A stretch of DNA of 64,000 nt from Hydractinia symbiolongicarpus (taxonomy: Eukaryota; Cnidaria; Hydrozoa; Anthoathecata; Hydractiniidae), in assembly GCF_029227915.1 (NCBI RefSeq), contig NC_079875.1:7440001-7504000 (forward strand). Reading direction: 5' to 3'. Below the pieces are notes generated by a model, which was not told the DNA's origin, made no database searches, and worked only from the letters and a program-made list of their open reading frames with translations. Positions 26,403 through 45,361 of this stretch are shown here, one piece after another (the stretch's first letter is position 1; every line of letters begins with the position of its first letter). A program made the position numbers and the translations under genes.

Positions 26403-27660
26403 GTCAGAAACATTGTGGTTCCATGTAATATTGAAATCAAAATGACCAACAATGATTATATTTATTAAACAATATATTTCGGAAATTTATTCCATCTTCA
26501 GGTCTAAAATATAAAAAACATATTCAGTAAAAACTGTTAAAAACATTAAAATAATAAAGAAAAAAGAGAATCACAGTCTTCGTATTCGTTTCCTTGAAGA
26601 ATGTCTTAAATCAAACATAATTCCGAAATTTCTTAAGTTTCGTATCCCCGAAAATGGTTGTTTTGACGACAAAGCTGTATTGGAATTTCAACTGAAATTG
26701 CTTAGAAAGGAGTTATATAACGCTAAGAAAGATTTGTTATCGGCGGAAGAGAAACTACATGAAAATCGGGAGATATTAAAAATTAAATCATATCGTATCA
26801 TACCATCAATTATATTCCATACTAGACTCGAAATTCGACAGTTCAGAAGTACACATGCAGATACGCTGAATAAGAAATTGAACAAACTGTCAGATGAGCA
26901 AGGAAAACCGTTATTTAATGTGACAAACACAGTAATTTGCTATGAATTAACGGAGAGACTCCCAAAATATGTTATGGAAACATTAGCCTTGGGTCCAAGA
27001 AACCCCATCATAGAGAAGTTCAACAAAAATGATGTGTTAACTGGTTTAGATGATTTGATTAGATTTTGCAAAGATAAAAAGATTAACGACGAGCTAATCA
27101 CTGACATAAATGTTAAGACTTTGGCATACGTTAAGAAATGCAATAAGCAAAAACCATCTAAAAACATTCAAATGACAAAAAAGTATCTAAAACTCAACAA
27201 CTTGATAGCAGTTCCCTTCGACAAGGGCATCGGCATTTGTGTTATGAAAGTTGAAAGTTATAACAACAAAATGAACGACATCATTGGTTTACCCCAATTT
27301 AATAAACTTACATCTAAAAGGAAAAATGAGAAGAACCCTGTGTTCAAAGAAGAAGAAAGAATTACATCTGTCCTGAAAGAGTTAAAAGTGAAGGGAAAAA
27401 TCAGTGAACAGCTTTATGATAAACTAAAGCCAATAGGAAGTCAACCACCTAGAATCTACGGACTTGCTAAAGTACACAAAAATAACACACCAATGAGACC
27501 AGTTTTATCGATGCCAGGTTCTCCATATTACAAACTAGCAAACCAGGTAGCAAAGTGGCTGTCAGTAGTAGATGAATGCAACATCAATTCTTCCACGAAA
27601 CAAATATCCGATCTAATTACACATCTCCAACTTGCAGAAAATGAGGAACTTGTGAGTTTT
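26290..27660 (+). mobile_element. Penelope-like retroelement, 5' part, truncated
   Basis: A frame open from about 26510 (no clear ATG) runs to 27660. Its C-terminal part has the Penelope-like RT N-terminal region: PPRIYGLAKVHKNNTPMRP, then SMPGSPYYKLANQVAKWL, ending in ELVSFD, the start of RT motif A. Just upstream, two similar stretches at ~26310-26345 and ~26462-26505 carry AATATATTTCGG and a GGAA...TTCC palindrome, the second ending in CATCTTCAGG, resembling the repeated ends of such elements. The catalytic RT motifs, thumb and GIY-YIG endonuclease are missing: the frame enters an (ATT)n tract in the middle of motif A. Non-functional copy. Confidence 0.82.
26370..26402 (+). repeat. (ATT)n microsatellite inside Penelope 5' region
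   Basis: About ten ATT units sit between the two similar terminal stretches of the Penelope-like element. Confidence 0.85.
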
Positions 27661-27661
27661 G

Positions 27662-27735
<74 letters not shown>
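27661..27735 (+). repeat. (ATT)n microsatellite truncating the Penelope RT
   Basis: About 25 ATT units directly follow the SFD of RT motif A. On the minus strand this is an (AAT)n tail preceded by TATAAGGAATCGGGAATATT and GGTTGTGCAGCTATCC, so it reads like the 3' tail of an inserted short retroelement lying in reverse orientation. Confidence 0.85.
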
Positions 27736-27736
<1 letters not shown>

Positions 27737-27785
27737 ATATTCCCGATTCCTTATAGGATAGCTGCACAACCGTTTCATATCGGCA
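27736..27785 (-). repeat. Single copy of the GGTTGTGCRGCTATCCT motif next to (ATT)n
   Basis: On the minus strand the order is GGTTGTGCAGCTATCCT, TATAAGGAATCGGGAATATT, (AAT)n. The 17-mer differs by one base from the core of the 84-bp satellite at 32-33 kb and the 21-bp minisatellite at 45 kb. Confidence 0.7.
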
Positions 27786-28312
27786 ACCGGAATACGAAAA
27801 GTTCATGCTCGAGCTTTCAAAATGTGAAATAGGGACCTAATGCACGAAACTTTTATTTTTTAATCAATACAAGAGACAAAAACTGTTGTAAATTGATGTA
27901 ATAACACTTGTCAAATATTGATAATAATCTTGTCAAATTTGAGAATTACTGTCAAATTTGACAGCAATATTATTAAAACATTCGGCCGTAAGCCGAAACA
28001 AAAATGATTTTTAATATGTTGGCCAACATATTACGCAAAAATATAAGGTGGCCAATATATCTAAGAGAAAAAATAAGTTGTGCTATATGTAAAGCAATAT
28101 ATATAATTAAAAACTACTGTAAAGTATATATCCGACTTTAAATAAATTAAACAAACTAAATTATATAAGGGAAAATACAGTTGCCACAGTGCTTTCTCAT
28201 GTTAAAATAAAAACGAGTTTCCAATCCCGATGTTATCAGATATTACCGCCTGAATCCTTTTATAAAACATCCCGTATAAAAATCAGGGTGATTAGGGTGA
28301 TTATGAGTAGTG

Positions 28313-28379
28313 GCAACCTCGTCCCCAGGGCATCCCGGGGTCAGAAAAGATACAAGATGGCCTTGGGACGAGGTTAGAG
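28313..28379. mobile_element. Small MITE with AACCTCGTCCCC terminal inverted repeats
   Basis: The ~65-bp segment begins CAACCTCGTCCCCAGGG and ends TTGGGACGAGGTTAG, i.e. near-perfect terminal inverted repeats of about 12 bp around a GC-rich core containing CAAGATGGCC. No transposase is encoded. A GGGGACGAGGTTG fragment at ~52470 and the hairpin at 45764-45814 look related. Confidence 0.65.
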
Positions 28380-31300
28380 TAGTCCTTGAAAGAGGACATT
28401 TCTTAGTGAAAATGTACGGAGAAGAAATATCCCTTATGTTTAAGGTTGCTACAGTGAAAAACCATCGAAATTTTCATTTGGTTAAAAACTTTTCAGGGAA
28501 TTATATTTTTGCGCACGTTAATCTTTATTCCTTTTTAACCTGCTGGATGATAAATTTAAATAAAATGCCTTTTTGACCTTATTGTTTTTAAATGGCGTGA
28601 TTTTTATGTAAAATCAATGACGAAGAAAGATATCGCGCAAGATAATTCCTTGTTCTGGCCCTACGGTTGAAATACAAAAAGTATGTATGGAAGACACCAC
28701 TAGTATGATGGAACGGTTCTTTGAAATAAAAAAAATATTATGACTTAAAGGTTTTAGTACAAATGTATATTGGAAATTCAAATTGACAGAAGAAATTGGT
28801 AAGTAGCACTTGTTATTTGAAATTTCAATCTGGCTTACTCTCCATAGACAAAATAATTAAAGTATTAGCATAATTCAATTAGTTTCTTTCCCAATCAGAG
28901 TGTTGGTTTCAAAGCTTCACCCAAATTTTCATTTTGCTTATGGTAAGGGAAGTCCAAAAGACAGAAAATCCAAAATACAGAAAACTTATAAAGTTTCGAA
29001 TATTTTTGTCCAGGTAACAATGAATAGGTTAATAAGAGAGAATTTGAGAATCCGAAATCTTGTGAAAACAAATCTGAAAGTCAGGGGCGGATACATACCA
29101 CGTCAAAGACGTTAAGTGACGAAGGTACATTGTCCTGTATAACGGACCATGTCAATCGAGAGGGCACAGTAGTGCGTAAAGTTCTTTTTATGTAAAAAAC
29201 GTGCGCAGACAAGCGGGAGTTATTATAAAATAGGGGACCGACAGCTCAGGGTGCTGCAGGGCCAGGTCTGGGCGTTGTATCTATTTCAATTTGCATGCTG
29301 CGTGATTATTTTGACGAATATAGCCTGTGGTAGTGTTTAAGCGGTAGTGTTTGATTTTCGATTGTTTTTCGATTGGTTGTCCCTACTCTCCGGTGAAGGA
29401 TTCCAAGTATCGTATGTAGAGAACGGATGTGTGTGGGTAACTTCTGAAGTTTTGTTAATTTGATTTCCAATTTATCTGTAATCCTTGTAGCGGAAATCCC
29501 CTCGTTTAGATTTTGCAATGAAGGCTTCATACACTATTGATTGTTTTAGTAAAGAAGTGGTAAGATTTGTGTATGTCTAAAGAAATTTTAAAACACATGA
29601 TAAACATTTTTTTTATTCATTATTTTCAATATACACAGTCAAATAGAAATAGGCCTTCAAGAAGAGTCAAATAAACCGATGCTAACATCTTGTGGTATTT
29701 TATCATAAGTAAGTTTATCAAACTTAAATAGGATACTTCCGTGTGTCTGTCTGTGACTTTTGCAAAGTGGGTTTTCTTTTTCGTACTTCTCTTTAACAAA
29801 GTCTATACCACACCACCTCTAAAATTCTTTTGCAATCTACCGATTTTTACGTTAAAACGATATCGACATCAGAGAAAAGTATTAAGGTTAGTGAAGGCAT
29901 TGTATTGCACTGTTAAGTTTTAGAAGTAACCGACTGGGTAAAGGGACTACCTAAAACTAACTAAGGACTAATTTTCTTAATCTGAGTCAACCCACCTGAT
30001 TCAGAACAGGCCTGCCTAATGACTTCATCTATTTAATCACCATATGGAATGTCTCTTCCCGTTCGTCGAAACACAAATTTGTATATATTTTCTTGATCAG
30101 TCAAAACATTTTGGTGCATTGGTGGGAAAGTTTTTTATTTTTTATAATCCTATATCTTTCTTTGCTGATAAAAACTGCGCAATCCAATACATTACTTTGT
30201 ACAGTAGCTTTTCACCATACAATAAAATTGTAAAAAAGCTTTTTTGTGCATCCATGATTCATTGCTGACGGCATCAAAATTCGAAAGACGTATCATTGAC
30301 GTTTATAACAAGACTGGCGTCAAGGTTGTAGTGTATTAAGATTAGTGGAAACGTTATACATCACAGTTTTAATTTTAAGCCTACTTGAAGAAACGAGTGG
30401 AAATAACTGACGCCATCTCCTGTGTGTGTAGCAATTCGAAAAAATTTTCTAAAGCTCGGTCAACCTAACTATTTTGGAACAGATAGCTAACGACGTCATC
30501 AAAAACTTTTCTGATCACGATATCAGTTCAACCGTTCCTCAAAAACATAATATCGTATCTATTTTCTTGATCAACATTTAAGGCTCTACACAATAGAGGC
30601 ACCGGTTGAGCATATTTTTCAAAAAATTTTTTGTAAAATAGAAACATTGCTGATGTAAGCAATAATTCTTAAATCTCTTTAAGTGCTAATCAAAACCGCG
30701 CGATCCTATAAATTAATTTGATCAGAGTTTAAAACTCCACACAATACAGGTAACACCTAAAAATATGGTTTTTACATCGACGGGTCATTGCTAAAGGTCA
30801 TTAAATGTCAAAGGGCCGATCTTTTTCCTAAATGAAATTTTTTCATGGGCCTTATCAACTAGTTTTTATAAAAATTTATGGAACCCATCATTCATTTTCG
30901 CGCACCAACATTTAATTCCATTCGTTAATCGATCAATTCCTTAGTGAACGCTTAGCATGGATTATTACGCACACGTTCCTACTACTTTTATCCATTTATA
31001 ACTCCCTGACATTACTCTTGACACGATCATAAAATATATCTTAAGTCTAGTAGCTAAAGTCCCTCGTTCAGATTTTTCAATCGAGTTTTCATTTTAGGGG
31101 GGGGGGGGAGACGTTCAAAAAAGAGGGGTCTTTATTCAAATTTTTACACTTCGTCTCTATTGCAGTTTTTTAGGATACCTTATTTTACCGATGTATCAAA
31201 TATGAGAGATTGTGTTTAGTTGTATTAACGAAATTTCTATATTATAATATCACCAGTGAAATTACCTTTTAATAAAAAGAGCAAACAATAGCAGTTATGG

Positions 31301-32139
31301 ATTTTTTATATACTTTTACTATCGCCTCGAATAAACGCAATTAAATTACGTACACGTAAAGTACTATTCAAGACAACTAAATACTTGTAAAAATTAATAG
31401 TATCTTTAAAACAAAAATCACGAAAACTCGACACTTTAAAGAAGAAATTTAAAGAAGACTAGATGCATTACTGTAACCACAATTTTAGTATTGAGGAGGG
31501 GACCTATAATGACTACCCGAGGCACCCCCATGACGGGCGCCGAGTAAAAAATTTTTAAATTTTGCATCTCTAGATTGGCCGAAAATGCCCTTCCAGACAT
31601 CAACGCTCTCATGGTTCAATGTTAAAAAAACGATGAATATTTCGATATTTTTGTAATTTAGAAAAGCTGCATTGTAGTTGCATCAAAATGTCGATAAAAA
31701 TTTTCCATCAGAAGCCGAAAGATAGAAAGAGATACATATTCCTTTTTTTAGTAGGAAAGTTATTATGCCCTCTATGACTACATAGTCTTTCCGATTATTT
31801 CCGGCCATGTTATTTTTACCTGAAGTTATAAATGACTTCACAAAAGCCTGGCAATTTTCGTGCACAACTTGAATATTTGAATTTAAGTGAACGTAAATTA
31901 TACAGACATTGTGGGAGAAGCTGAAACATGCCGCTGATATGTTGTTGTTAATTGTCCAAAATCGCCCACACGAACAAGATATGTATGGAAAGTCGGTAAC
32001 AGTTGTAGAGCTAACATATATATCTCAACATAAGAAAAAAATTCATACTGCATTGATAAAAATATAGAAACAAATAAAGGAGGAATTGGCAAGCTTCTTT
32101 TTTAAGGTATTGAAAGAGACGATTTTCCTATTTTCAGTA
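28380..32139. other. Gene-free AT-rich interval
   Basis: No ORF with recognisable similarity and no splice-linked exon chain was found on either strand. Between about 30040 and 30800, phrases such as TTTTCTTGATCA, CATTGCTGA and ACACAATA recur at irregular spacing, suggesting old diverged copies of an interspersed repeat. A ten-G run occurs at ~31098. Confidence 0.5.
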
Positions 32140-33470
32140 ATAACGGTGCAGCTATCATACATATTACAAAAAACAGAATCAAATCCATACATGTACAGAG
32201 ATAATTAAAATAATTACCGGTTGTGCGGCTATCCTACATATCGAAAAGATAGTAAAACGCAATTACATCGATACATGTACAGAGATAATTAAAATAATTA
32301 CCGGTTGTGCGGCTATCCTACATATCGAAAAGATAGTAAAACGCAATTAAATCGATACATGTACAGAGATAATTAAAATAATTACCGGTTGTGCGGCTAT
32401 CCTACATATCGAAAAGATAGTAAAACGCAATTAAATCCATACATGTACAGAGATAATTAAAATAATTACCGGTTGTGCGGCTATCCTACATATCGGAAAG
32501 ATAGTAAAACGCAATTAAATCCGTACAAGTGCAGAGATAATTAAAATAATTACCGGTTGTGCGGCTATCCTACATATCGAAGAGATAGTAAAATGCAATT
32601 AAATCCATACATGTACAGAGATAATTAAAATAATTACCGGTTGTGCGGCTATCCTACATATCGGAAAGATAGTAAAACGCAATTAAATCCATACAAGTGC
32701 AGAGATAATTAAAATAATTACCGGTTGTGCGGCTATCCTACATATCGAAAAGATAGTAAAATGCAATTAAATCCATACATGTACAGAGATAATTAAAATA
32801 ATTACCGGTTGTGCGGCTATCCTACATATCGAAAAGATAGTAAAACGCAATTAAATCCATACAAGTGCAGAGATAATTAAAATAATTACCGGTTGTGCGG
32901 CTATCCTACATATCGGAAAGATAGTAAAACGCAATTAAATCCATACAAGTGCAGAGATAATTAAAATAATTACCGGTTGTGCGGCTATCCTACATATCGG
33001 AAAGATAGTAAAACGCAATTAAATCCATACATGTACAGAGATAATTAAAATAATTACCGGTTGTGCGGCTATCCTACATATCGAAAAGATAGTAAAACGC
33101 AATTAAATCCATACATGTACAGAGATAATTAAAATAATTACCGGTTGTGCGGCTATCCTACATATCGGAAAGATAGTAAAACGCAATTAAATCCATGCAA
33201 GTACAGAGATAATTAAAATAATTACCGGTTGTGCGGCTATCCTTTATATAAAACGCAATTAAATTGATCTAAAATATTTAAAATAATTAGCGGTTGTGCA
33301 CCTATCCTATTTGTCGAAACGATGAAAAAAACGCAATTAAATCGATAAAAGTACCGAGATAATTAAAATAATCAACGGTTGCGCAGCTATCCTATATGTT
33401 GAAGCGATGAACAAAAGCAAGTACCGAGATAATTAAAATAATTAGCGGTTGTGCAGCTATCCCATTTTTA
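32140..33470 (+). repeat. 84-bp satellite array with GGTTGTGCGGCTATCCT core
   Basis: The string CCGGTTGTGCGGCTATCC starts at 32217, 32301, 32385, 32469, 32553, 32637, 32721, 32805, 32889, 32973, 33057, 33141 and 33225, an exact 84-bp period for 13 units. One decayed unit precedes (~32140), and about three decayed, length-variable units follow to ~33470. Each unit also has a CTATC...GATAG inverted repeat and either ATACATGTACAGAG or ATACAAGTGCAGAG, giving two interleaved subtypes. Units are otherwise nearly identical in the centre and diverged at the edges, as expected under unequal exchange. No coding potential. Confidence 0.95.
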
Positions 33471-34432
33471 AACATCAAAGTAATTATTTTTATATCGGTA
33501 GTATAGATATCCAAGAAATTCAAGTAGTTCTGTTAAAGGGCCCAAACCCCCATAATTGTGATTTTGGATATATTAAAAAATGAAAAAATCAGGAGTTTCA
33601 GAAATCATTTGTCTCTGAAATATTGAACTTTATATTACGACGTACAAGGTTTCAGATTAATTATTGTATGATATACAACTATAGCTATACTGATTTATAT
33701 CTGAGGACAAAAAATTGTCGGCTGGCGACAGATTATGCGCATTGGAGACAATATATAATGTATAAGCGTTGAAGTACGTTTTCTTGAAAGTCACAATACT
33801 TGTAACAAAAAAAAGGTTTAACAAAAATTATAAACAACATAAAACAGTCAATGGAAAATCTGACAACAAAAGTAAGTTAGAAAAAAACTTCAAAAAATGA
33901 AAAAAATATGCAGAAATACACGTTCCAAATAAGAAACGTTTATATCCTGACATATACTATACAACTTGTCAAAACTTCTTCTAAAAAACAATTTTAATGC
34001 GTGTCAAGAGCAATGATTTTAAAAATTTTCAGAGGCACTCTTTGTAAAGTTAAAAACATTGACGTAAGACCAAAAGTTTCTTATATAAAAAGCGTATTAA
34101 AGAATTTAAAGTCACATGATAACTGAATACGAGACGGTATAAAAACAACAACTTTGGTGTTTTTACGCGTGAATGAGGTGACTACGTGACTACGACAACG
34201 AACGTTTTGTAAATTGGTGAAATAGTTGCAACGGCTAATAAAGTCCTTATCACGATAATTTAACAAAAATAATAAAACTAAAAAATCTAATAACATGTTA
34301 GTTTATGATATGTATGTTCGAACCGTGCAAGCAGGTAGTCGTAAATCCAAATATATACATCAGCTAAAGAGAAATAAGATAGTAAAAATTAGTTACCACT
34401 GATATAACCACACGTTTCAAAACAAAATGTGG
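33471..34432. other. Spacer between satellite and recombinase gene
   Basis: AT-rich sequence without supported gene. If the donor-like GTGAGT just past the stop of the recombinase gene is used, this interval could contain a 3' UTR intron and exon of that gene. Confidence 0.4.
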
Positions 34433-34446
34433 AAAAATTACTCACC

Positions 34447-36533
34447 TTATTTTACCAGCCTTTTCTTGCGTTCATACATGATTCGTGTTCGAATTTGAGT
34501 AAAACTAAAGTTTTCCATCAAATTACATTCTCTCAGACAATCCCTTACTCTCTCCTCTGTTAACGCACCTCCTTCAATTAATTTACCTCCATAATGCTTT
34601 AATGTTTTTATATCTTCATTGGAAAATAAACTTCGTCGCTTTATGGGAGAAAATGCAGGTTTACTCATACGACGAAGCTTGTCATACATTTGTCTGGGAG
34701 AAGCATTCAGTGACGACAGGGAGTCGCTCTTTTTTTTCACCTCACTTAGACTGATCTCATTTTTTTCATCAAAAGTATGTTTTAATACTTCGCACTCTTT
34801 TTCGGTCCAAGTCTTTTTCTTCGTTGGCGTTTTATTGATGTCATCTGTTCCATGAAACAAATTCGTTATCGAACTTGTTCCAATCAACGAAGACTTTTCT
34901 ATGTTCCGTAAATAATAATGCTGGTCAGCGGTTTTTATACTATGGGACATTAAGTTTGCAGCATCGTCGATATGTGCGCTTTTTGACTCTCTCAGGCCTG
35001 TGCTTGCAGACTTTCTGACAATTTTCGACGAGAGATTTTTCCGTATTATCTTGTTTTCAAAGTTGCCTACTCGCTCCCATAACAAATGGAGTCTTTTACT
35101 TATATCGCCCGATTTCACTTTTCTTCCAGACCAGCTTAGGAACACTTCGGTGCACCTTGGATTAGTTTGAATCCTGGCAAAATCGATGTATGTTTTCAGA
35201 CTATTAAAATTATCTTCAGATAATATGACTTTAGCTGGTCCATAAGTCTCGACTGTTTTATGGTTCCATACATCGATAATCCACACTCCGTCTTTGTTCT
35301 TTGCATTCAGGAATTCATTCATGGTCATGTTGGCAGTAACACCTGATCGCTGTGCCAATGTAAAGTGTATTGTAAAGTAAATATGATCTCTCACCATACA
35401 ATAATCAGTTTGACTTATGGGGTAAGCACCATACTGTGCTAACTTTTGAATAATTTCCGTGGCTTTTCGAGCCTGATTACTGTTTGTGTATTTCAGTACT
35501 TGATCTTTAGTGACCAACATTTCCTGATCTTCAGACATTCTTTCAAATCGCGCTAGCTTCTCCTCCTTTCTAAAGTTCTTTCTCCATTGTTTGAGTTTAC
35601 CAATCATTGTTGTAATGTCGTGGCTGGAAACGTTTGGTAGGGCAACATCTTCTGCGATTAAGAATTCGCATAAATCAATTAAAGAGTAGAGGTATTTCTT
35701 CACGCTTGTTGGCTTCGTTTTTTTTTGCTTGCAGTATTGGTTCAAATATATTTCTCTAAAGTCGTTACCACCATTTTTGAAAACTATACTCACGTCATCT
35801 TTAACATTTATAGCCCGAAAAATACGTCGAATATCTCCAGCGATTACGTACATTGAAGCTTCATCTCTTTTGCGATCAGGACCAACCATATACTCCCTAA
35901 ACCGTTCTACAAGCTTTTCCACGTTCTTACCAAGAGCTTGGTCGCAACAATCATCATCACCACTTCTTTCTCCTAAATATTCGCCGCTAATGTTACTTTC
36001 ATCCTCAGTAGAATCATCTGACTCCGGCACTTGTTCTTTTGCGGGCATCTCATATCTTACTTTTGGCCGTAGCCGCAACTGACAAAATTCATTAACATTA
36101 GAAGATTGATGCATTGATTCAATGACGCAACTGGATTCCTCATTTCCCAACTTCTCTTGATCGTCGCCGTGTACAAAGACTGTTTTTTTGGTCTCTTTGG
36201 GTACCACATTGCTCTCTAATGAATTTGGTCTCGATGAGTAATCAAACCTGCGTTTCCTGTGTTGCGATATATCGGCGTTATCATTACTACTTGCGGCCTC
36301 TGCTTTCTTGACGAGGATGTCTTGGAACGATTTTTTGGGAGACTGCGAAAAGTCCTTTGGCAGATACGATTCTTCGAATTTTGGCGCTATTTTAAGCATT
36401 TCGTAAAATTTGGGTCCTTTCTCTATTTTGTGAAACCTTGCTAGATGATCAGGCAAGTTTGATCTTACGAGAAAGCAGTTCGGGAATGGACACATTCGAC
36501 TGTAATGGTAGTTGCTACTCTTCTTGTCCAACT
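34447..36533 (-). other. Tyrosine recombinase and Myb-like half (exon B)
   Basis: The 2,087-base exon begins with a C2H2 finger (CPFPNC...HLARFH), then an acidic, Ser-rich linker. A core-binding-like helical region is followed by the catalytic domain. Catalytic codons: Arg in LAQRSG at 35347-35349, Lys in NHKTVETYG at 35257-35259, Arg in KIVRKS at 35014-35016, His in LMSHS at 34942-34944, Tyr in QHYYL at 34915-34917. The His-to-Tyr spacing of nine is canonical. The HxxR His is replaced by Lys. Two Myb-like helical segments occupy the last ~120 residues. Confidence 0.8.
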
Positions 36534-38648
36534 CTTTAATGGAAGAAAAGACGAAAATATATACGGTTATTCACATATGCTTGTAGAAATGAGGAATTTA
36601 TTTTTGTGCACAATTAAATTTGCCAAGAAAGTCGCAACTTGTCCTAAGAATAGTCTGACTGCGTTTTATCCCTGCTTTGAAACTAACATTTTAGAGGCTT
36701 GTCCCAATGAAATAAAAATTGGCACATTTATATTACGAAGAAAACAGAAATGTCAGCAGTTTTTCTGTGACATTACCGAAAGCTGGAAATTTATTTAAAA
36801 TACCACTATCTGAAAGCCAAATAAAATTTATTTAACATATATTTCGGTTTTTGAATAATTCGCCTAACAAGTTATTCCGATTTCCAAATTTTGTCGGATT
36901 TTACCCGAAAATTGGAAAAAACCTGGTTTTTGGGTAAAATACGACAAAATTTGGAAATCGGAATAATTATTGTACTTAAGGAAACGAAGTGGTGATGTAA
37001 GTTTTTCATGCTCTAAGGATAATCCTAAAAAAAGTTATTAGATTTGATAGAGATTTTTAGGAGTAGTTTCGAGTAATAGCCAATATCTAAGCCTCCTAGA
37101 GGTGTGGGATCAAAACATTTGGCATTTGCGTGCCTAATAGATAATTATTGAATCTTAGTAAGTTTCATTGCCATACAACATGGCATAAGGAAGTTATTAA
37201 AGGAAAACAGTCTGAGGCGGAATCCGCCCCCGCCCTCCCGGGACCGAATAGGTTTCAATGATATAACAAACAAACACACCTTTCTTCTGGCTATTTTTCA
37301 ATCCGAATTGACTCGAGGCTGCAGCTGCACTTTCCCAGCTCCATTTATGCGCTCTACGTAAATGACGCGTAATATATTTTTGACTAATATTGCAAACTGG
37401 ACATTCCTTAACGATGCTACCAGATTTTCTTTTTTTAAGTTGTTCCTTTGTATTTGTCGCATTGGCTTCTGTGGATTGAAGAAAAACTTCTTTCTCACTT
37501 TCTATTTCAGCATCAGAAACTTTCGTCGCTTCTGTTGCTCCATTTGTGACTTCAAAGTCTATTTGTGACCTTTTGTTTTGAATTTTTGAGTGCAATTCTT
37601 TAATAAAATTCTGATGATTTACCATTCCACGTTTGATGTTCTGTTGGAAAGTCTCGTCTTCTTTAAAAGTCATATCGTTATTCTCATCTATGTACGTAAG
37701 ATATACTTTGAAGTGCTCCTCGGTTTTTGCTTTTGTCCATTTCATTACTGTAGAAAACAAGCATATAATAGCGTCCGGGAGTAAAACCTTTATGATGTAA
37801 TCTCTAATGTAACCGTTTTCATAATGTTCTCCAAGAATCTGCCTTATTTGCTTCTCTATCATGGACATGATCTCTTCAGGTACCAATTCCAATAATTTTG
37901 TGTCATCAAGATCCTTCTGAGTTCTACCACCATTGGCAAATGCCAAGTGCCTCCAACAGTCTTCATTGCCCTCCATAGTACCTTTGACATAGCCACAACT
38001 TATGACAGTTACAATCAATTCTGCGTTAAACATGCTGATTCCTTTAATGGTACAATTTTCAGTTACTTCGTTTTCATTTCTTTTATTAACATTACTGATC
38101 ACCCGATCCAAGCTAGCGTAATTAGCTCTATCAGATATATATGCCGTGTGTTGCTCAGTTGATCGATGAATCTCGAGATCTTCGAAATGTACTGCGCATA
38201 TTTCACAATAACCATTTTCCTTTTTAGTCACGTCTTTACAGTTCGAATCCAATTGAATTTGCGTATTATCTCTTAATTCCTTTGGTAAAGGTTTACAAGA
38301 TACAAAAGCTGGTCCCTGATCGAGGTAGTTAATAATAGGTAGAGAAAGTTCTTTACACACAACGGGTTTATATTGTTTGTCTTTGTCTTCGAATTTTATG
38401 TATCTACCGTCCAGTATTTCAACTTTATTAAACATTCTTTTCAATTGCTTGGCCTCATTCACTATCTTCTTACTTTCCAATTCTTCTTTTTTGGCGCTTG
38501 ATTTTGTCACATTAACTAATTGCAAAGTCATCTCTTGCTCGGTAAATTTGTCTTTGCTCTCTCTAAATTTGCTCTTTGACGCTAAAATATTTTTTAAAAG
38601 TTCCGTTGCCGTTGATGGGTTCTTTTGCTTTGTTCCATCTTTGCTCAT
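34447..38648 (-). CDS. DBF4-like / C2H2 / tyrosine recombinase / Myb fusion protein (two exons)
   Basis: Exon A 38648-37280 and exon B 36533-34447 splice in frame (donor AAAG|GTGTGT, acceptor TTCCATTAAAG|AG, phase 1, creating Glu), for about 1,151 aa. Residues ~82-119 match DBF4 motif M (YIKFEDKDKQYKP, LPIINYLDQGP). Residues 147-185 are a DBF4-type zinc finger (GYCEIC, DLEIHRSTEQH; C148, C151, H161, H167). In DBF4 these parts bind and activate Cdc7 kinase. C2H2 fingers follow at ~416-434 and ~471-491. A tyrosine recombinase follows, with R852, K882, R963, H987 and nucleophile Y996, as in Crypton-like elements. Myb/SANT-like segments (TWTEKECEVLKHTF; SNEDIKTLKHYGG) close the protein. Both frames are intact. 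It is either an element-encoded recombinase or a domesticated gene. The ATG at 38648 is the first in frame after an upstream stop, so an earlier exon is possible. Confidence 0.82.
36872..36966. repeat. Long hairpin / MITE-like inverted repeat in the recombinase-gene intron
   Basis: Two arms of about 39 bases, starting TTATTCCGATTTCC and ending GGAAATCGGAATAA, are separated by a ~16-base loop and differ at only a few positions. The element lies inside the 37279-36534 intron that joins the DBF4-like and recombinase exons. It has the look of a tiny fold-back MITE. Confidence 0.85.
37198..37255 (+). repeat. GGCGGAATCCGCC repeat copy 1
   Basis: A palindrome GGCGGAATCCGCC followed by CCCGCCCTCCC and GACCGAATAGGTT recurs at 41127-41185, where ~20 extra bases separate the last two blocks. 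The copy lies just past the splice donor of exon A of the recombinase gene. Confidence 0.6.
37280..38648 (-). other. DBF4-like half (exon A)
   Basis: The 1,369-base exon encodes a Lys-rich N terminus, DBF4 motif M, the DBF4-type finger and a ~200-residue mostly helical region of unknown function (LELVPEEIMSMIEKQIRQIL, IKVLLPDAIICLFS). It ends with a C2H2 finger (CPVCNISQKYITRHLRRAH). A BRCT-like motif N, present at the N terminus of true DBF4, is absent, so this is not an ordinary DBF4 orthologue. Confidence 0.78.
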
Positions 38649-39035
38649 CCCACTCTACGAAAGAGATTACCCGCCTTTTAGACATAATTATTATAATTGA
38701 AAACTTTCTGAGAAAACATGTTGTATTTACACGGCAAAACATGCTTAAACATAAGACAACGCCGCCGGCAAAAACTATATAGCACTAGCAGAAAGGTCAT
38801 GTAATTTACATATATGTAAATAAAAACAAACTGGTTGGACATTTTATGCATTTATATTAGTATTAAGCCTCAAAATGACTAACCATTTAAAATTATAACC
38901 AACCTTTTTCTCTATATCCGTATTCCTCTCCGTTGTTTGATTCTTTACGCCCGTTGTACCTTCCATTACTTTCAAACCTATTGTGAAATTAAAAAAGTAG
39001 CAAAAAATAACCAGTTGTACATAATAAAAATTAAA
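38649..39035. other. 5' flank of the DBF4-recombinase gene
   Basis: AT-rich sequence without recognised coding exons. It would contain the promoter if the ATG at 38648 is the true start; no TATA or initiator can be singled out. Confidence 0.35.
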
Positions 39036-39262
39036 CACCGTAAAGATCCGAATAAGCGCCCAATATTTATTAAGCGCCCCTCGAATAAGCGCCCAGATAA
39101 TTTCCTCAAAGTTCAATAAGCACCCAGCACTTACTAAGCGCCCCCTCGAATAAGCGCCCACCTGATGAAAGCGCCCAGCGTTTTTAAGCCCTCCCTCGAT
39201 TAAGCGCCCAAAATATCTAAAAATTTAATAAGCACCCAGGGCGCTTGTTCGGATCATTACGG
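39036..39262. repeat. AAGCGCCC-rich interspersed repeat
   Basis: At least ten copies of the octamer AAGCGCCC or close variants (AAGCACCC, AAGCCCTCC) occur at irregular 10-30 base spacing, many as TCGAATAAGCGCCCA. The tract ends in CCCAGGGCGCTTGTTCGGA then CATTACGGTA. Related pieces lie at 39440-39540 (ACGCCCC) and 39856-39895 (AACGCCCTGGGCGTTTATTC). The reverse-oriented ends form an inverted repeat, suggesting a DNA-element origin. Confidence 0.65.
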
Positions 39263-39299
39263 TATTCTGGTTCAATCTTGGGGTCAGTCAAGAAGGCTG

Positions 39300-42000
39300 G
39301 AATAAAAGTGTTAAATTAAAAATCTTTGTACTATCTTAGATAGAATAGTGCATATAAGGCGGTTGCAGATGAAACTGATAAATGGAGGATCACTGTAATC
39401 TTTCAAAAAATGTGTTAATGGTTTAAATAATCGCTGTTTTCATGAAACGCCCCTCTTGTCTAAACGCCCCCATCTTCTTATCTTTTTAATTTAAAAGCTG
39501 CCTTTAATAGACACCCCGCTGGAATAGCGCACATCCAGCGGGAGCATTTATTCAAACCAAAAGGAAAACTCTCTTGCCTCTTTATTCGTAATAAGAAATT
39601 ATCTATGTACACTTTTTTCTCAACTTTAACTTTGCCGTAGGAAACGTTTTTTCCTCTTAGCAAGTTCATTTTTAAAAACCTCAGAAACTAGTTGATACTA
39701 CTAACTAGTCCAACTTTTATTTTTAAAATGGTAACATACATATGTCCAATAAGAACATCTCTTTTGTAAAGGCTTATCGAATATTTGTCGTAATTCCTGG
39801 CGTCTTTCCTTTCATCCGTAATTAAAAAAAATACTAAGCTCTCACTCACAAAATTTAATAAACGCCCTGGGCGTTTATTCGAAAAATTACGATATGGATT
39901 ATTAGATACTGTTGAAAACAAGAGGTAAAATAAAAATCACCGTAATTTCCTTATAAATGGTGTATGGATTATCCCGGAGAAATGGGAACAAAAGTGGTAA
40001 AAAGAGAATCATCGTCGGTTATCCAATGTTTTATCTATACGTAATCCAGCTTTTAGTCCCTGGCGCCTTTTTTCTTATGATGGTCCAGAGTGTTTATTAT
40101 CAGAGAGTGACTTCAATACTAATATAGTATATGGAGGAAAGACAGTTTTCGTTTTAAAATGCATAATTACCAATACCTTTATCAAGCTGTATCCTAACCA
40201 AAATTCTTCTATTTAACTTTAAATCTTGTGTACAAAAAATCGTTTTCCAAATCAGTGATCCAATTCGTTATTTTTACTCTCAAATATAAATCCCAATTAA
40301 ATCGCATAAAAGTGAAACAATTAAAGAGCACAGTTATATGTCTTCTTCTCTACGCTACATTCATTTGTCGGAACGAAAGTGCGAATGGTTAAGGCGAAAT
40401 GCATAACAGGTGTTACGTTTTGTTAAATACTTAAAACAAAAAGATGTCACCAGTGTATTCAATTTAAAACTGTAAGAAATCTTTATCTTTGATCCCTGTA
40501 CCCTTTGTCATTTCGATATAAAGCTACGTTAGCAAAAGGATCTAGGAACGAGTTTGTAATAGCTTAGGATTGAATATTGAAAAATTTGGCAATCTTGCAA
40601 GTGAGGTACAGGAATTTATTAGTCGCAGCAAAGTCGATAAAAATATATTCCCCTTTTTTAATTGTAGCTTAAAGATTTCGAGCGCGATTTAGAAATCCCT
40701 GACGAACCCGGCCAGACCTCGCAGACAGGCAGTAGTAATGCGTTTTGTTAATTAGCGTACGTTTGAGAGAGGCGTTTATTTTTAATGCGAGCCTTTTTCA
40801 TAATCGAAGGATGTTTACTAGTTTCTTAAATTTGTTGTTGCTATTGGTTATTATTAAAACAGATTTTCAGGCTATTTTGCGTAAAAAACAAAAAAAATGT
40901 TAGTTTGGCTGTCGGAAACTTCAAATATAATGTAAAAATTCGCCTTAAAACTTAGTAATTGATTTTTAGACAGATAGTTGTATTTTGGACAAATTTCCAG
41001 CTTCCGGTGACGTCACAGTAAAAATCCTGACAGAGTAAAATTTGTCGCCCTCTTTTTCTTATATGACGTAAAAAAAGTGTGCTAAATTTTATTTATTTTG
41101 TATAAACCTATCAAAAGTCATGCATAAGGCGGAATCCGCCCCCACCCTCCCTGTCAATAAAACTCTCTGGTCGAATAGGTTATTAACACTTGCGCTAAAA
41201 ATTAAGCAATATTCTACTAATGCTTGACTCTGGTTGCTTATAGATCAGATCCTTAACTCTAATACATCAAGACCCCGTTTATTTGAACATTAGGCCAAAG
41301 CGAGTTTAAGTTTACCGTTGTTTAGGAAAGTAAGAAAATTAGTAAAAAAAGAAGAATATATATTATTCCAATTAATATTAGGGTTAATTACAGAGCACTA
41401 ATCAACAGTGTCATTTTCATCCAACTTGAACACATTACTGTAACAATGCAGCACTCCATATATGAATTATGTGTGCTTCTCTGTACTATCGTTAATTTTG
41501 TGCTGTCGTAAACAAGCCGCCAAAGTCTGAAGCAATGCTAATCCAGTGTATCACAATTTTCTAGAAAAATAAAATTACATCCTACATGGAGAATCACTGT
41601 CATATCTTTCATAAATATTAATAATAAAAAGTATAAACCAGAACTGTAAATAGAGAATCACAGAATCATAGAAGGAGTTAAAAACTAAAGTAGCAAAAAA
41701 GAATCACTGTAATCTCTTTGATAAATTGATGTATGGATTATGAGAGGGGGTGGAAACGAAAGTGGTAAATACACAATCACCGCAATTTATTTAATAATAT
41801 AATGTATGGATTATCAATGAAAAAGGCAACAAAGAATCACTAATTTTTCAGATAAAATCATGTATCGATTACCAGAGGGAGTTGGAAACAAAAATGGCTA
41901 TCAAAAAAGTGTGTCACTTTTTGGACAAATGATCAGGATTATAAAGACACATTTTTTATTAGAAACACGAAACTTTAAGGTTGACAGTTGCCTAAATTGT
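39300..42000. repeat. Dispersed ~85-bp repeat family (GTATGGATTAT...AATCACNGTAAT)
   Basis: Related segments occur at 39370-39410, 39935-40020 and as degenerate tandem copies from about 41580 to 41900. Shared phrases are GTATGGATTAT, GAGGGNGTTGGAAACAAAAG, GGTAAAAAAGAATCAC and GTAATCTCTTTNATAAAT. No coding potential is seen. The intervening sequence holds no gene that I can support. Confidence 0.55.
41127..41185 (+). repeat. GGCGGAATCCGCC repeat copy 2
   Basis: Second copy of the palindrome block at 37198, here AAGGCGGAATCCGCCCCC, ACCCTCCC, then GGTCGAATAGGTT. Confidence 0.6.
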
Positions 42001-44940
42001 TAACAAAACAGGATAAAAAACATAAATCAGGTATTTTTGGCAGTTATAATGACATTAATATGATAAAAAAATCAATTATCATCTTTCATTAAAAGAATTG
42101 CAGAGTGCAGGAAAGATATATTAATTAAGATTTCTTATATAAAGAATGTGTATGATTTTATGTACAGTACATTCCAAGTTTGTTGTATAAAAATTTTCTT
42201 ACCTACAGTAATTGTATTTTGTCCAGTTCCCATACTTAATTTCAATGACAATCAACCTATTTGTGACTTTTCTGTCTAACCTTCAGCATGTTGTTGTTGA
42301 AAGCTTCCCTACTACTGATAATTTTTGTGTCAGTCTAAAACTATAAAACATTATATCATAAAGATTATTTAGTTCTTCAACAGGTTTGAAATCATAGCTC
42401 TTTACATAATAAGGTCACACTTTATGATAACTGTATATAACCCAAATTACTCTATTTAATTATTACATATCTTTACATGTTCCTCACATCATTGTTATTT
42501 ATATTTTTAATACTACTAAATTGAGAGCTCTCAAATAAAGTCAAATACCATACTATGTATAAAAACAAAAGAATCCATTCCAGTCGAAATACTCTTGTTT
42601 TAGGGATTAGGGATTATATATATTGTAATGTTTAAGTAGTTATATTCTTTCTCAACAAAACATTTTTGTCAGGTTCACAGTAAAAAATGTTTTGGAGCGA
42701 TAGCATTACCTTAAATGTACATTATATTATTTTGCGAAAAGCTTTAAAAAATTGTGGCTTACTGGACTCCAAAAATTTATGAAATAAAAACGATAAAATA
42801 AAAACAGGATTTGTTCTTATTATCGAGCATCTCGTCCAACCCTAAATATTCCTCAAGTCTCTGCTGCATCTCCAATAATGGCAAACACAAAATCCCTAAC
42901 AATGACTTTATGTATATTTACAATATACAAGGTATTAAGATGCCCCAGAGTTGGAGAAAAGTGACAAAAAATGTTTCTTAATTCGAAACATTTATGTGAA
43001 AGGGGTAGGGAGTGGGGTTGAAGCAAATCTGTTAACAAATTTTATTAAAACCATATAAACTTGGCTAATTTTAATTGATCTTGATGTAAACATTTGGTTG
43101 AAATTAATACGGTCTCTCTTAAAATGCCTAAATTAAAGAACTCGATAATTATAATGATGGGTATATAATAAATATTTTGGGGGAATATCGTCACACGATT
43201 TTAAAACACACCATTCCAAGTTTAACGTCATCGTTTTTATTTTTCCTAAGTTTAAACTTTAACAAAAAGATTGAGCTTTGTCATCAACATAAAAATATCC
43301 ACCCAAACACAAAATTTACTTTCACTGCACACTTTAACAATGCTGTGTCAGTAAAAACAAGATTAAATAATAGTTATAGAACATAGCTTGAATTTTTTTC
43401 AGTGGATATGATAAAAAAAAGTTAATTTCGAGAGGCTGCCTGGCCATCACTAGCCTACATTTCTATATGTTATCGTGTCATCTTTACATTAAATATTTCC
43501 ATATTTTTTTATGTTATGTCCTGTGTCTCTGTCTACCATCTTGTCTAAATGTCATATATCTAGTCCACATCAATGCCTATAAATATTGGTTATTACATCT
43601 TAAATGTACATATCAACTGCCCAAGAATACTTTTGTCAATCTTCAGATAAAAATTTTTTACTTTACCACACCAAACATAACACCGAAGTATATACAGTAA
43701 AAAAATATACTTTACATATACATTACGGGCTCTTTTGTAACTTAAAATCTTAGAAAAATAAACCACAAATGAACTAGAGTCAAGTGGAAGTTATAAAAAT
43801 AACGAAAAATTTAAAAAATAATCTAAACATAGATCAATTTCAGGTATATATACCTGTTACATTATACTTCATTTTGATGCTTCAAATTTAGGAAGATTCA
43901 TTTTAACTTTATTCATAAGTTGTTGCGCATAAAAACTTTAGCTTGAGCACTTTGCGCATAGAATGCTCAAAATATTTTTAAAATTTATAGCTATATACAG
44001 AAGCATCAGGGAAAGATTACTTTTCCCACTTTGTTTATTATTAGCTGTGCCATATTTATTTATCCATTTTAATTTATATATATATAATGGATAACAAGAG
44101 AGTTTGGCCAAACTAATCAAATATATACTGATATCAACTATACTGATACACACACACACACCTTTTTTTATTTGTTAACCCGTACAGAAGTGGATATTAT
44201 TTTATATAGAGAAAAAAATACTATCCAAAAAGGAAAAAGTTTTAGCTTTTATGGTTTCTGCAGCAATAGTGCATGGTCCCCGAAATACTGAAATCATCAA
44301 AAAAATTTGCTAATGTTTTTAAAATTTTATAAGCATTTTTCATGCAATTATCATGAGAGTTCAGCTCTTAATTTTCAGCCCTTAAATAGCTAGCTAGCTA
44401 GCCCGCATTCATTTTCGTGTTTAATCAAAAAAACTTTCAGAAAGATTTCCTGATAAAGAAATCTCAAAATTTTTACAGCAATAATTTTCAGCTTCAGAAA
44501 TAAGTTCGTGGTAATGAATAACTTATAATTCTGCAACTATAATCAAACTGTTACAGCTAGCTATAGCTAGCTATATTATTGTATATGTAGCTACCTAGCT
44601 ACTTTCAATAAAGTTCAAGAAAAAAATAAATCTATAAATATATATAGTTAGCTAGCCAGCTAGCTAGCTATCATAAATTATCAGCAGAAGACATTTGATA
44701 TTTTGCATATATCCAAGACAGATCTTCCCATCACAGCTGCAAATACTTAACAGAAGATTAAAGCAACCAGAAGTGTAATCTGTGATTAAAAATTAGTAAC
44801 CCTTATTTCTTTAAAAGTTTAAATACAACAGCTTCCGTTGAACATTAAACAAATGGTTAGCTACAGTTGTTAAACTTTTCGAATACACTGGCCAGAGTCA
44901 TCGCATGGCATCCGCTTGGTAGCCATTTTTTTAATGAAAA
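42001..44940. other. Gene-free AT-rich interval with AGCTAGCT clusters
   Basis: No exon chain is supported. Between 44385 and 44670 the tetranucleotide AGCT/TAGC clusters repeatedly (TAGCTAGCTAGCTAGCC, AGCTAGCTATAGCTAGCTA). A (CA)n run sits at ~44150. A short minus-strand stretch at ~42795-42870 reads LEEYLGLDEMLDNKN and could be a terminal exon, but no partner exon was found. Confidence 0.45.
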
Positions 44941-44964
44941 CATGATAATGTCACGGCTGCCGAA

Positions 44965-45110
44965 GTGGTTGTGCGGCTATCCTAAGTGGTTGTGCGGCTA
45001 TCCTAAGTGGTTGTGCGGCTATCCTGTATGGTTGTGCGGCTATCCTGTACGGTTGTGCGGCTATCCTGTCGGTTGTGCGGCTATCCTAAACGGTCGTGCG
45101 GCTATCCGAA
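44965..45110 (+). repeat. 21-bp minisatellite with the same GGTTGTGCGGCTATCCT core
   Basis: Seven consecutive units of about 21 bp, each a 3-4 base spacer (AAGT, GTAT, GTAC, GTC, AAAC) plus the 17-mer; the last has GGTCGTGCGGCTATCC. The 17-mer is identical to the core of the 84-bp satellite 12 kb upstream. GGAATATT and the (ATT)n tract follow directly. Confidence 0.9.
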
Positions 45111-45120
45111 AATGAATTAG

Positions 45121-45361
<241 letters not shown>

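Follow-up and report, generated by a model that had tools for sequence, protein, structure and literature searches.

Starship captains are fungal DUF3435 recombinases that move large elements, and SETMAR is a domesticated primate gene in which a SET domain is joined to a mariner transposase. Replication-coupled movement is known for Ac/Ds and Tn7; to our knowledge, how transposons that move by conservative tyrosine recombination rise in number is a largely open question. At replication origins, KMT5A methylates H4K20 in licensing and DBF4 activates the kinase Cdc7 in firing, gripping and activating it through motif M and the motif C zinc finger, the two parts used in the human Cdc7-DBF4 structures (4f99 and others). 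Cryptons, reported from the cnidarian Nematostella among others, have an R-H-R-Y tetrad with the His in HxxR and, according to the part of the source cited here, neither terminal inverted repeats nor long direct repeats, with short direct repeats in fungi and none found in animals (PMC3212892). Endogenous nimaviruses carry tyrosine recombinases linked to insertion in host (TAACC)n microsatellites, as an excerpt of their description states (PMC10871703), and a DBF4-type domain, the H-BRCT of the yeast heterochromatin protein Sir4, occurs outside DBF4 in the portion of that work consulted (PMC6394760). Here we describe a DNA element of 17,392 bp (positions 27736-45127) in a 64,000-nucleotide stretch of the genome of the hydrozoan Hydractinia symbiolongicarpus (NC_079875.1, positions 7,440,001 to 7,504,000; the window), which encodes a predicted protein joining a DBF4 module to a tyrosine recombinase. 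No published description of a DBF4-recombinase combination was found in searches of an open-access library aimed at it, judged by titles and the first part of abstracts.

The gene consists of two minus-strand exons, 38648-37280 and 36533-34447, in the frames where an earlier reading of the letters alone (the sequence-only reading) had placed them; the predicted phase-1 junction 37280|36533 yields 1151 codons plus a stop and hence one protein of 1151 amino acids. The proposal that the two frames belong to one protein was borne out by two relatives. P0002, a 1321-residue open reading frame (ORF) on a 5,870-bp contig, aligned across the junction, at 28% in the portion that matches exon 1 and 48% in that matching exon 2, and L014, a copy of a second family (family B) in the same genome, is a single intron-free genomic ORF of 1272 codons that spans a SET domain, the DBF finger, both C2H2 fingers and the recombinase as far as the second Arg box, with the remainder of the recombinase in a second frame. 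Because P0002 aligns through the junction and L014 reads through without an intron, the fusion is real at the level of the predicted proteins, regardless of whether the window intron is spliced as drawn, and a splice artefact is ruled out as its source. Relatives as distant as 26-53% identity, namely P0002 and families B and C, have the same fusion. Within exon 1, a conserved middle domain gave sub-threshold matches to PWP3A-B_C in the window copy (4.1e-4 and 1.1e-4) and none in P0002, and the exon-1 alignment has invariant columns in this domain as well as in the finger. An acceptor-like CTTTCGTAG lies immediately ahead of the exon 1 ATG (38655-38656), so an upstream exon is possible. The intron holds a 40-nt inverted repeat (95%, 36872-36966), probably a small nested repeat or hairpin, and shares two repeats with the right non-coding part of the element, one inverted (62 nt, 84%, 36751-36812 and 40971-41032) and one direct (25 nt, 96%, 37215-37239 and 41127-41151). 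Upstream of the gene, AAGCGCCC-rich repeat units are scattered over 39054-39265 and 39850-39895.

The zf-DBF finger (motif C) of exon 1 matches its Pfam profile at 1.8e-13 (50.7 bits, cut-off 24.8). In a phmmer comparison of exon 1 with all PDB chains, three sequences were found at E <=1, all of them DBF4; the human match (7.9e-9) covers motif M and the finger, and the yeast match (about 1e-4) the finger only. When the finger was removed, DBF4 was the sole PDB chain at E <=10 (0.018, ungapped, 52 residues). The segment upstream of the finger, aligned ungapped with human motif M, scored 61 in the window copy, 63 in P0002, 56 in family B and 44 in family C, each value being matched by 0 of 1000 shuffles per lineage; the host DBF4 candidate (L021, on C5), which matches 4f99_B at E 6.9e-5, scored 38, matched by 3 of 1000. 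In these four diverged lineages motif M starts 49-66 residues ahead of the finger, and a profile built from six element rows retrieves human DBF4 at 2e-15. The phmmer, shuffle and profile results uphold the motif M and zinc finger of the sequence-only reading, and together the PDB searches, the shuffles and the six-row profile rule out a chance match of either part. The element thus keeps the same two parts through which human DBF4 contacts Cdc7. No BRCT/motif N row was found in Pfam at E <=1 in exon 1, a possible upstream exon lying beyond this search.

The recombinase was compared across 28 aligned proteins, comprising 24 from a search with the P0006 recombinase, earlier relatives and the window copy. 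Arg395, Lys425, Arg506, His530 and Tyr539 (exon-2 numbering) are invariant in 28/28, confirming the R, K, R, H and Y previously read in canonical order. The HxxR His is absent from all 28, its column being N in 17, T in 10 and K in one, the window copy; this His/Lys position varies across the tyrosine recombinase superfamily. The phage-integrase Pfam domain gave only sub-cut-off matches, in relatives. A sequence profile of the recombinase matched no recombinase in PDB, though fold comparison matched several: the exon-2 model (mean predicted local distance difference test, pLDDT, 58.5) is closest to XerA, XerH, Cre and lambda integrase, with large root-mean-square deviations in the two-domain comparisons and one of 3.9 against the XerD catalytic domain by itself. 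In the structure model, the core-binding and catalytic fold of the superfamily is present. The Crypton-like membership suggested by the sequence-only reading did not survive. DUF3504/GCR1_C gave no Pfam row at E <=1 in exon 2 and P0001-P0006, and none at 0.01 in 10 of 21 other relatives. By the features tested, the element falls outside the Cryptons, from which it differs in three defining features: homology to DUF3504/GCR1_C, the R-H-R-Y tetrad and the lack of terminal inverted repeats.

We searched the genome that holds the window (480.9 Mb, 76 contigs) for zf-DBF and found 22 matches, which later sequence comparison divided into seven of the window type (family A), three of family B, four of family C, one host DBF4 candidate and seven short degenerate ones, two of which were compared and showed no exon match. 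Four of the seven family A copies (C1, C4, C13 and C12), on four chromosomes, have both exons open over their full length; the other three are C15, whose exon 2 is broken, and the decayed copies C7 and C11. Outside a tandem array, where C4 has fewer units, the window and C4 copies agree at 99.9%; the flanks of the two are unrelated, and on either side homology ends within (TTA)n repeats. DNA matching the right 921 bp was listed at six places (96-100%). The left end AATATTCCCGATTCC is present in 5/5 copies read (C1, C4, C13, C12, C15) and the right end GAATTAGGAATA in 6/6 (the same copies and C7), neither end having been read in C11. (TTA)n adjoins the element end in 11/11 cases (the repeat has a single variant base in C12 and is interrupted in C7), and past it the flanking sequence differs between copies, suggesting insertion into a pre-existing (TTA)n microsatellite, which the recombinase appears to target.

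With copies on other chromosomes that have the same ends and different flanks, the element is mobile. Of the two origins offered by the sequence-only reading, a mobile element with a DBF4 module is the one supported, and its suggestion of searching for zf-DBF copies with conserved edges was rewarded, every family A copy read having the same ends; a host gene assembled from an element and a DBF4 duplicate fits poorly with four open copies on four chromosomes. The ends of the element, its (TTA)n surroundings, the iterons as sequence common to the ends and the KMT5A-type SET of the sister families lay beyond the reach of that reading. Domestication as a host gene is accordingly very improbable: the exons do show purifying selection, as such a gene would, yet there are decayed copies alongside the open ones, and ends are common where flanks differ. 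We regard as equally remote that the copies are segmental duplications or the fusion an assembly artefact. The C1 and C4 copies, 99.9% identical outside the array, would suit this explanation, but all copies read lose homology at one and the same sequence on either side, the element ends in inverted repeats, and the fusion recurs at 26-53% identity in P0002 and the other two families.

Between the window copy and C13, 9/2087 and 8/1369 aligned exon bases differ, with zero gaps, and the non-coding flanks differ at 61/4251 and 75/6218 positions, with 39 gap openings. The synonymous and nonsynonymous proportions of differences in this pair are 0.0147 (pS) and 0.0025 (pN). Counts of synonymous and nonsynonymous differences from the window copy are 10/7 for C13 and 12/7 for C15; the decayed C7 has 25 synonymous and 72 nonsynonymous differences and three stops. 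Purifying selection is indicated on the exons overall, the counts for the DBF part alone being small.

Families B and C carry an additional N-terminal module, a SET domain (6.1e-14 in L014 of family B; 3.4e-15 to 4.1e-15 in L015, L016 and L017 of family C). When the L015 SET was compared with PDB, the best 14 of 60 rows listed were KMT5A/SET8 (best 6e-22), followed by a 'Protein with a SET domain within carboxy region' (4ldg) at 2.1e-11; by profile, the SET matches KMT5A at 1.9e-24. Since KMT5A and DBF4 both act at replication origins, these two host domains were probably not picked up at random. Family C has (TTA)n at its end in 3/3 loci (L015, L016, L017), of which L016 alone showed sequence past the repeat; the family carries a distinct 89-bp array whose core is GGATAGCC. 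In family B, (TTA)n adjoins a candidate end in the decayed copy L020. In a tree of 31 recombinase domains, the window copy, P0001, P0002, P0003, family B and family C (two rows) form one clade (100/100). All five of the seven rows with a known N-terminal part have the DBF module; P0001 and P0003 were treated as partial because both begin at the second finger, and scoring them as lacking DBF gives three label changes on the tree. As SET is present in B and C, it was probably lost in family A.

Other recombinase families coexist in this genome, with at least 78 matches to P0006 (55 of 485 candidates scored). Short degenerate zf-DBF matches at C9:18891662, C3:32045809 and C14:1700940 lie ~1-7 kb upstream of P0006-type recombinase genes and are possible remnants of the DBF4 module. 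For P0006 itself, an H. symbiolongicarpus protein encoded on C9 at 99%, such a match lies about 7 kb upstream, but a tblastn search for the module in L034 gave nothing at E <=0.05. Five recombinase relatives of 701 codons (C9:16030296, C1:26832846, C14:14864988, C11:21935607 and C15:5698927) have no zf-DBF match within 400 kb and constitute another multi-copy family of the same superfamily. No viral relative was confirmed in two viral-contig scans based on a few peptide words.

The element's own repeats bear on what the protein may do. A 16-bp iteron, GGTTGTGCGGCTATCC (<=2 mismatches), occurs 24 times in the window, always within the element, and 100 shuffles produced none. One iteron stands inverted at the left end, 16 lie in or beside an 84-bp tandem array, and seven are at the right end. 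The terminal inverted repeat includes the iteron, an arrangement suggesting that the protein encoded by the element recognises it. The marker word of the 84-bp array was counted 14 times in C1, seven in C4 and eight in C13; as unit number varies between copies, the array changes faster than the rest of the element. Cryptons have neither a reverse transcriptase nor a DDE transposase, and DIRS/Ngaro retrotransposons have a reverse transcriptase next to the tyrosine recombinase. In a survey of unspliced frames by length, excluding the gene and frames overlapping it, the longest other ORF inside the element has 126 amino acids, and no reverse transcriptase was seen there as a long ORF.

We propose, with a probability of about one in two, that the protein, bound to the iterons, draws in and switches on host Cdc7, which would let the element time or increase its replication at about the moment it transposes. 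In this reading the element is a DNA transposon that moves by tyrosine recombination, its recombinase cutting and rejoining the ends. The C2H2 fingers, the C-terminal helices and the recombinase would bind the iterons in both terminal repeats, at the right end and in the internal array. As motifs M and C, the known parts for gripping and activating Cdc7, are kept, the N-terminal part would most likely bring active Cdc7 to the element, where MCM phosphorylation and origin firing could follow. The element might then be replicated early, or again, during excision or re-insertion, and a conservative cut-and-paste recombinase would gain copies through the extra replication. Families B and C have a KMT5A/SET8-type SET in addition, as though origin licensing had been taken over along with firing. 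The wider idea of a self-licensing, self-firing class of animal transposons, with both origin switches captured, fused to a recombinase, aimed at the element's own iteron arrays and serving to gain copies, is more tentative, and we would give it distinctly less than even odds.

Several observations weigh against the Cdc7 recruitment proposed here. In family C the first half of motif M survives, the P-x-I-N-Y half being gone. The structure model of exon 1 is unusable (mean pLDDT 35.9), and that of exon 2 falls below 50 over residues 493-570, the site of the last catalytic boxes. The intron differs from that of C13 at 6/746 positions, less than the flanks; the window copy shows 0 synonymous and 3 nonsynonymous differences from C4 and 10 and 12 from C12, and the DBF part alone has 2-3 synonymous against 0-2 nonsynonymous differences per pair with C13, C15 and C12. 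In the sister families, the L015 SET reads N-D-S where KMT5A has N-H-S, and tblastn detected no SET domain in the window element, the best E being 0.93.

The same motif M and C evidence would be expected if the DBF4 part bound Cdc7 or MCM-rich chromatin to govern where or when insertion happens, with no increase in the element's own replication; it would either tether the recombinase to DNA that is licensed but has yet to fire or act as a Cdc7 decoy. The (TTA)n context already suggests targeting by sequence, which leaves less for a chromatin tether, yet timing could be set by Cdc7 even if place is set by (TTA)n; the internal iteron array, hinting at a function other than recognising ends, also speaks against this alternative, which we consider unlikely. 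Marginally less likely still is that zf-DBF and motif M are only a protein- or DNA-binding fold whose Cdc7 function is gone, retained as pieces of a chimaeric N-terminus. The half-lost motif M of family C is in keeping with this, as are the invariant columns of the middle domain, which may be the functional piece; against it, M and C occur together, in order and at a spacing of 49-66 residues in four diverged lineages, and the profile still finds human DBF4. The coordinates of all features are listed in Table 1.

Table 1 Features of the element and of its sister families (window positions unless a locus is named).
Feature	Position	Strand	Evidence
Element, 17,392 bp	27736..45127		ends common to copies, outer flanks differ
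Left flanking (TTA)n microsatellite, presumed target	27662..27735		adjoins left end in 5/5 copies read
Right flanking (TTA)n microsatellite	45128..45361		adjoins right end in 6/6 copies read
Left terminal inverted repeat	27736..27776	+	8/8 at tip, 33/41 overall
Right terminal inverted repeat	45087..45127	-	pairs with left repeat
Terminal iteron, 1 mismatch to GGTTGTGCGGCTATCC	27756..27771	-	
Internal 84-bp tandem array and degenerate edge, 16 iterons	32170..33462	+	
7 iterons, right end	44967..45107	+	
Exon 1, 456 codons + 1 base: DBF4 module, middle domain, first C2H2 finger	37280..38648	-	
DBF4 motif M, residues 83-118	38295..38402	-	protein and profile comparisons
DBF4-type zinc finger (motif C)	38091..38222	-	profile match
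Conserved middle domain, about residues 189-360	37569..38084	-	
C2H2 finger 1	37347..37403	-	sequence
Phase-1 intron, predicted; absent in L014	36534..37279	-	
Exon 2: second C2H2 finger, tyrosine recombinase, C-terminal helical part, stop	34447..36533	-	
C2H2 finger 2	36430..36492	-	sequence
Tyrosine recombinase, core-binding and catalytic domains	34897..35934	-	alignment, fold comparison
Catalytic residues	R 35349-35347, K 35259-35257, R 35016-35014, H 34944-34942, Y 34917-34915	-	
C-terminal helical part, possibly Myb-like	34450..34824	-	
KMT5A/SET8-type SET upstream of DBF4 module, fused	L014:3049-6864, L015:5326-6879, L016:3151-4701, L017:5326-6876		

Outside the element, an ORF at 26515-27661, by eye like a Penelope-type reverse transcriptase and without a Pfam row at 0.01, runs into the (TTA)n tract that holds the element. 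Beside the element, the plus strand of the window (3319-24387) carries SPRY, RCC1 and HECT exons in this order, which we take to be a HERC1-like host gene.

In this iteron-bearing element one protein unites the mobilising recombinase with the part of DBF4 that activates Cdc7, joined in the sister families by a KMT5A-type SET domain, which suggests that the element may control its own copying. Replication control by an animal transposon thereby becomes directly testable in a laboratory animal. The fused module is also a candidate natural minimal Cdc7 activator, and the recombinase of the element is of interest for its apparent preference for (TTA)n as a target.

Compared with DBF4, the element protein has motif M followed by the motif C zinc finger in the same order, and differs in that no BRCT/motif N was detected, that C2H2 fingers and a recombinase are fused to the module, and that it is encoded by a transposon. 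What families B and C share with KMT5A/SET8 is the SET domain, which is closest to KMT5A by a wide margin; theirs is fused upstream of a DBF4 module and, in L015, has D for H in the NHS motif. SETMAR resembles these two families in joining SET to a mobile-element enzyme. Starships are likewise large elements moved by a tyrosine recombinase; here, by contrast, there is no DUF3435 Pfam row, no cargo gene was recognised, and the host is an animal. Sir4 has the H-BRCT undetected in the element protein, whereas the latter has motifs M and C, in a transposon, as far as the cited part of that work allows the comparison (PMC6394760). Nimaviruses, in the excerpt available, similarly combine a eukaryotic tyrosine recombinase with a host microsatellite, but are large DNA viruses; in the element a single gene can be recognised, and the surrounding repeat is (TTA)n (PMC10871703). 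Cryptons, as characterised in the cited part of their description, are also eukaryotic DNA elements mobilised by a tyrosine recombinase; the element described here departs from them in the HxxR His (0/28), in its inverted repeats (33/41) with iterons, in its (TTA)n context, in its DBF4 module and, in the sister families, in the SET module (PMC3212892).

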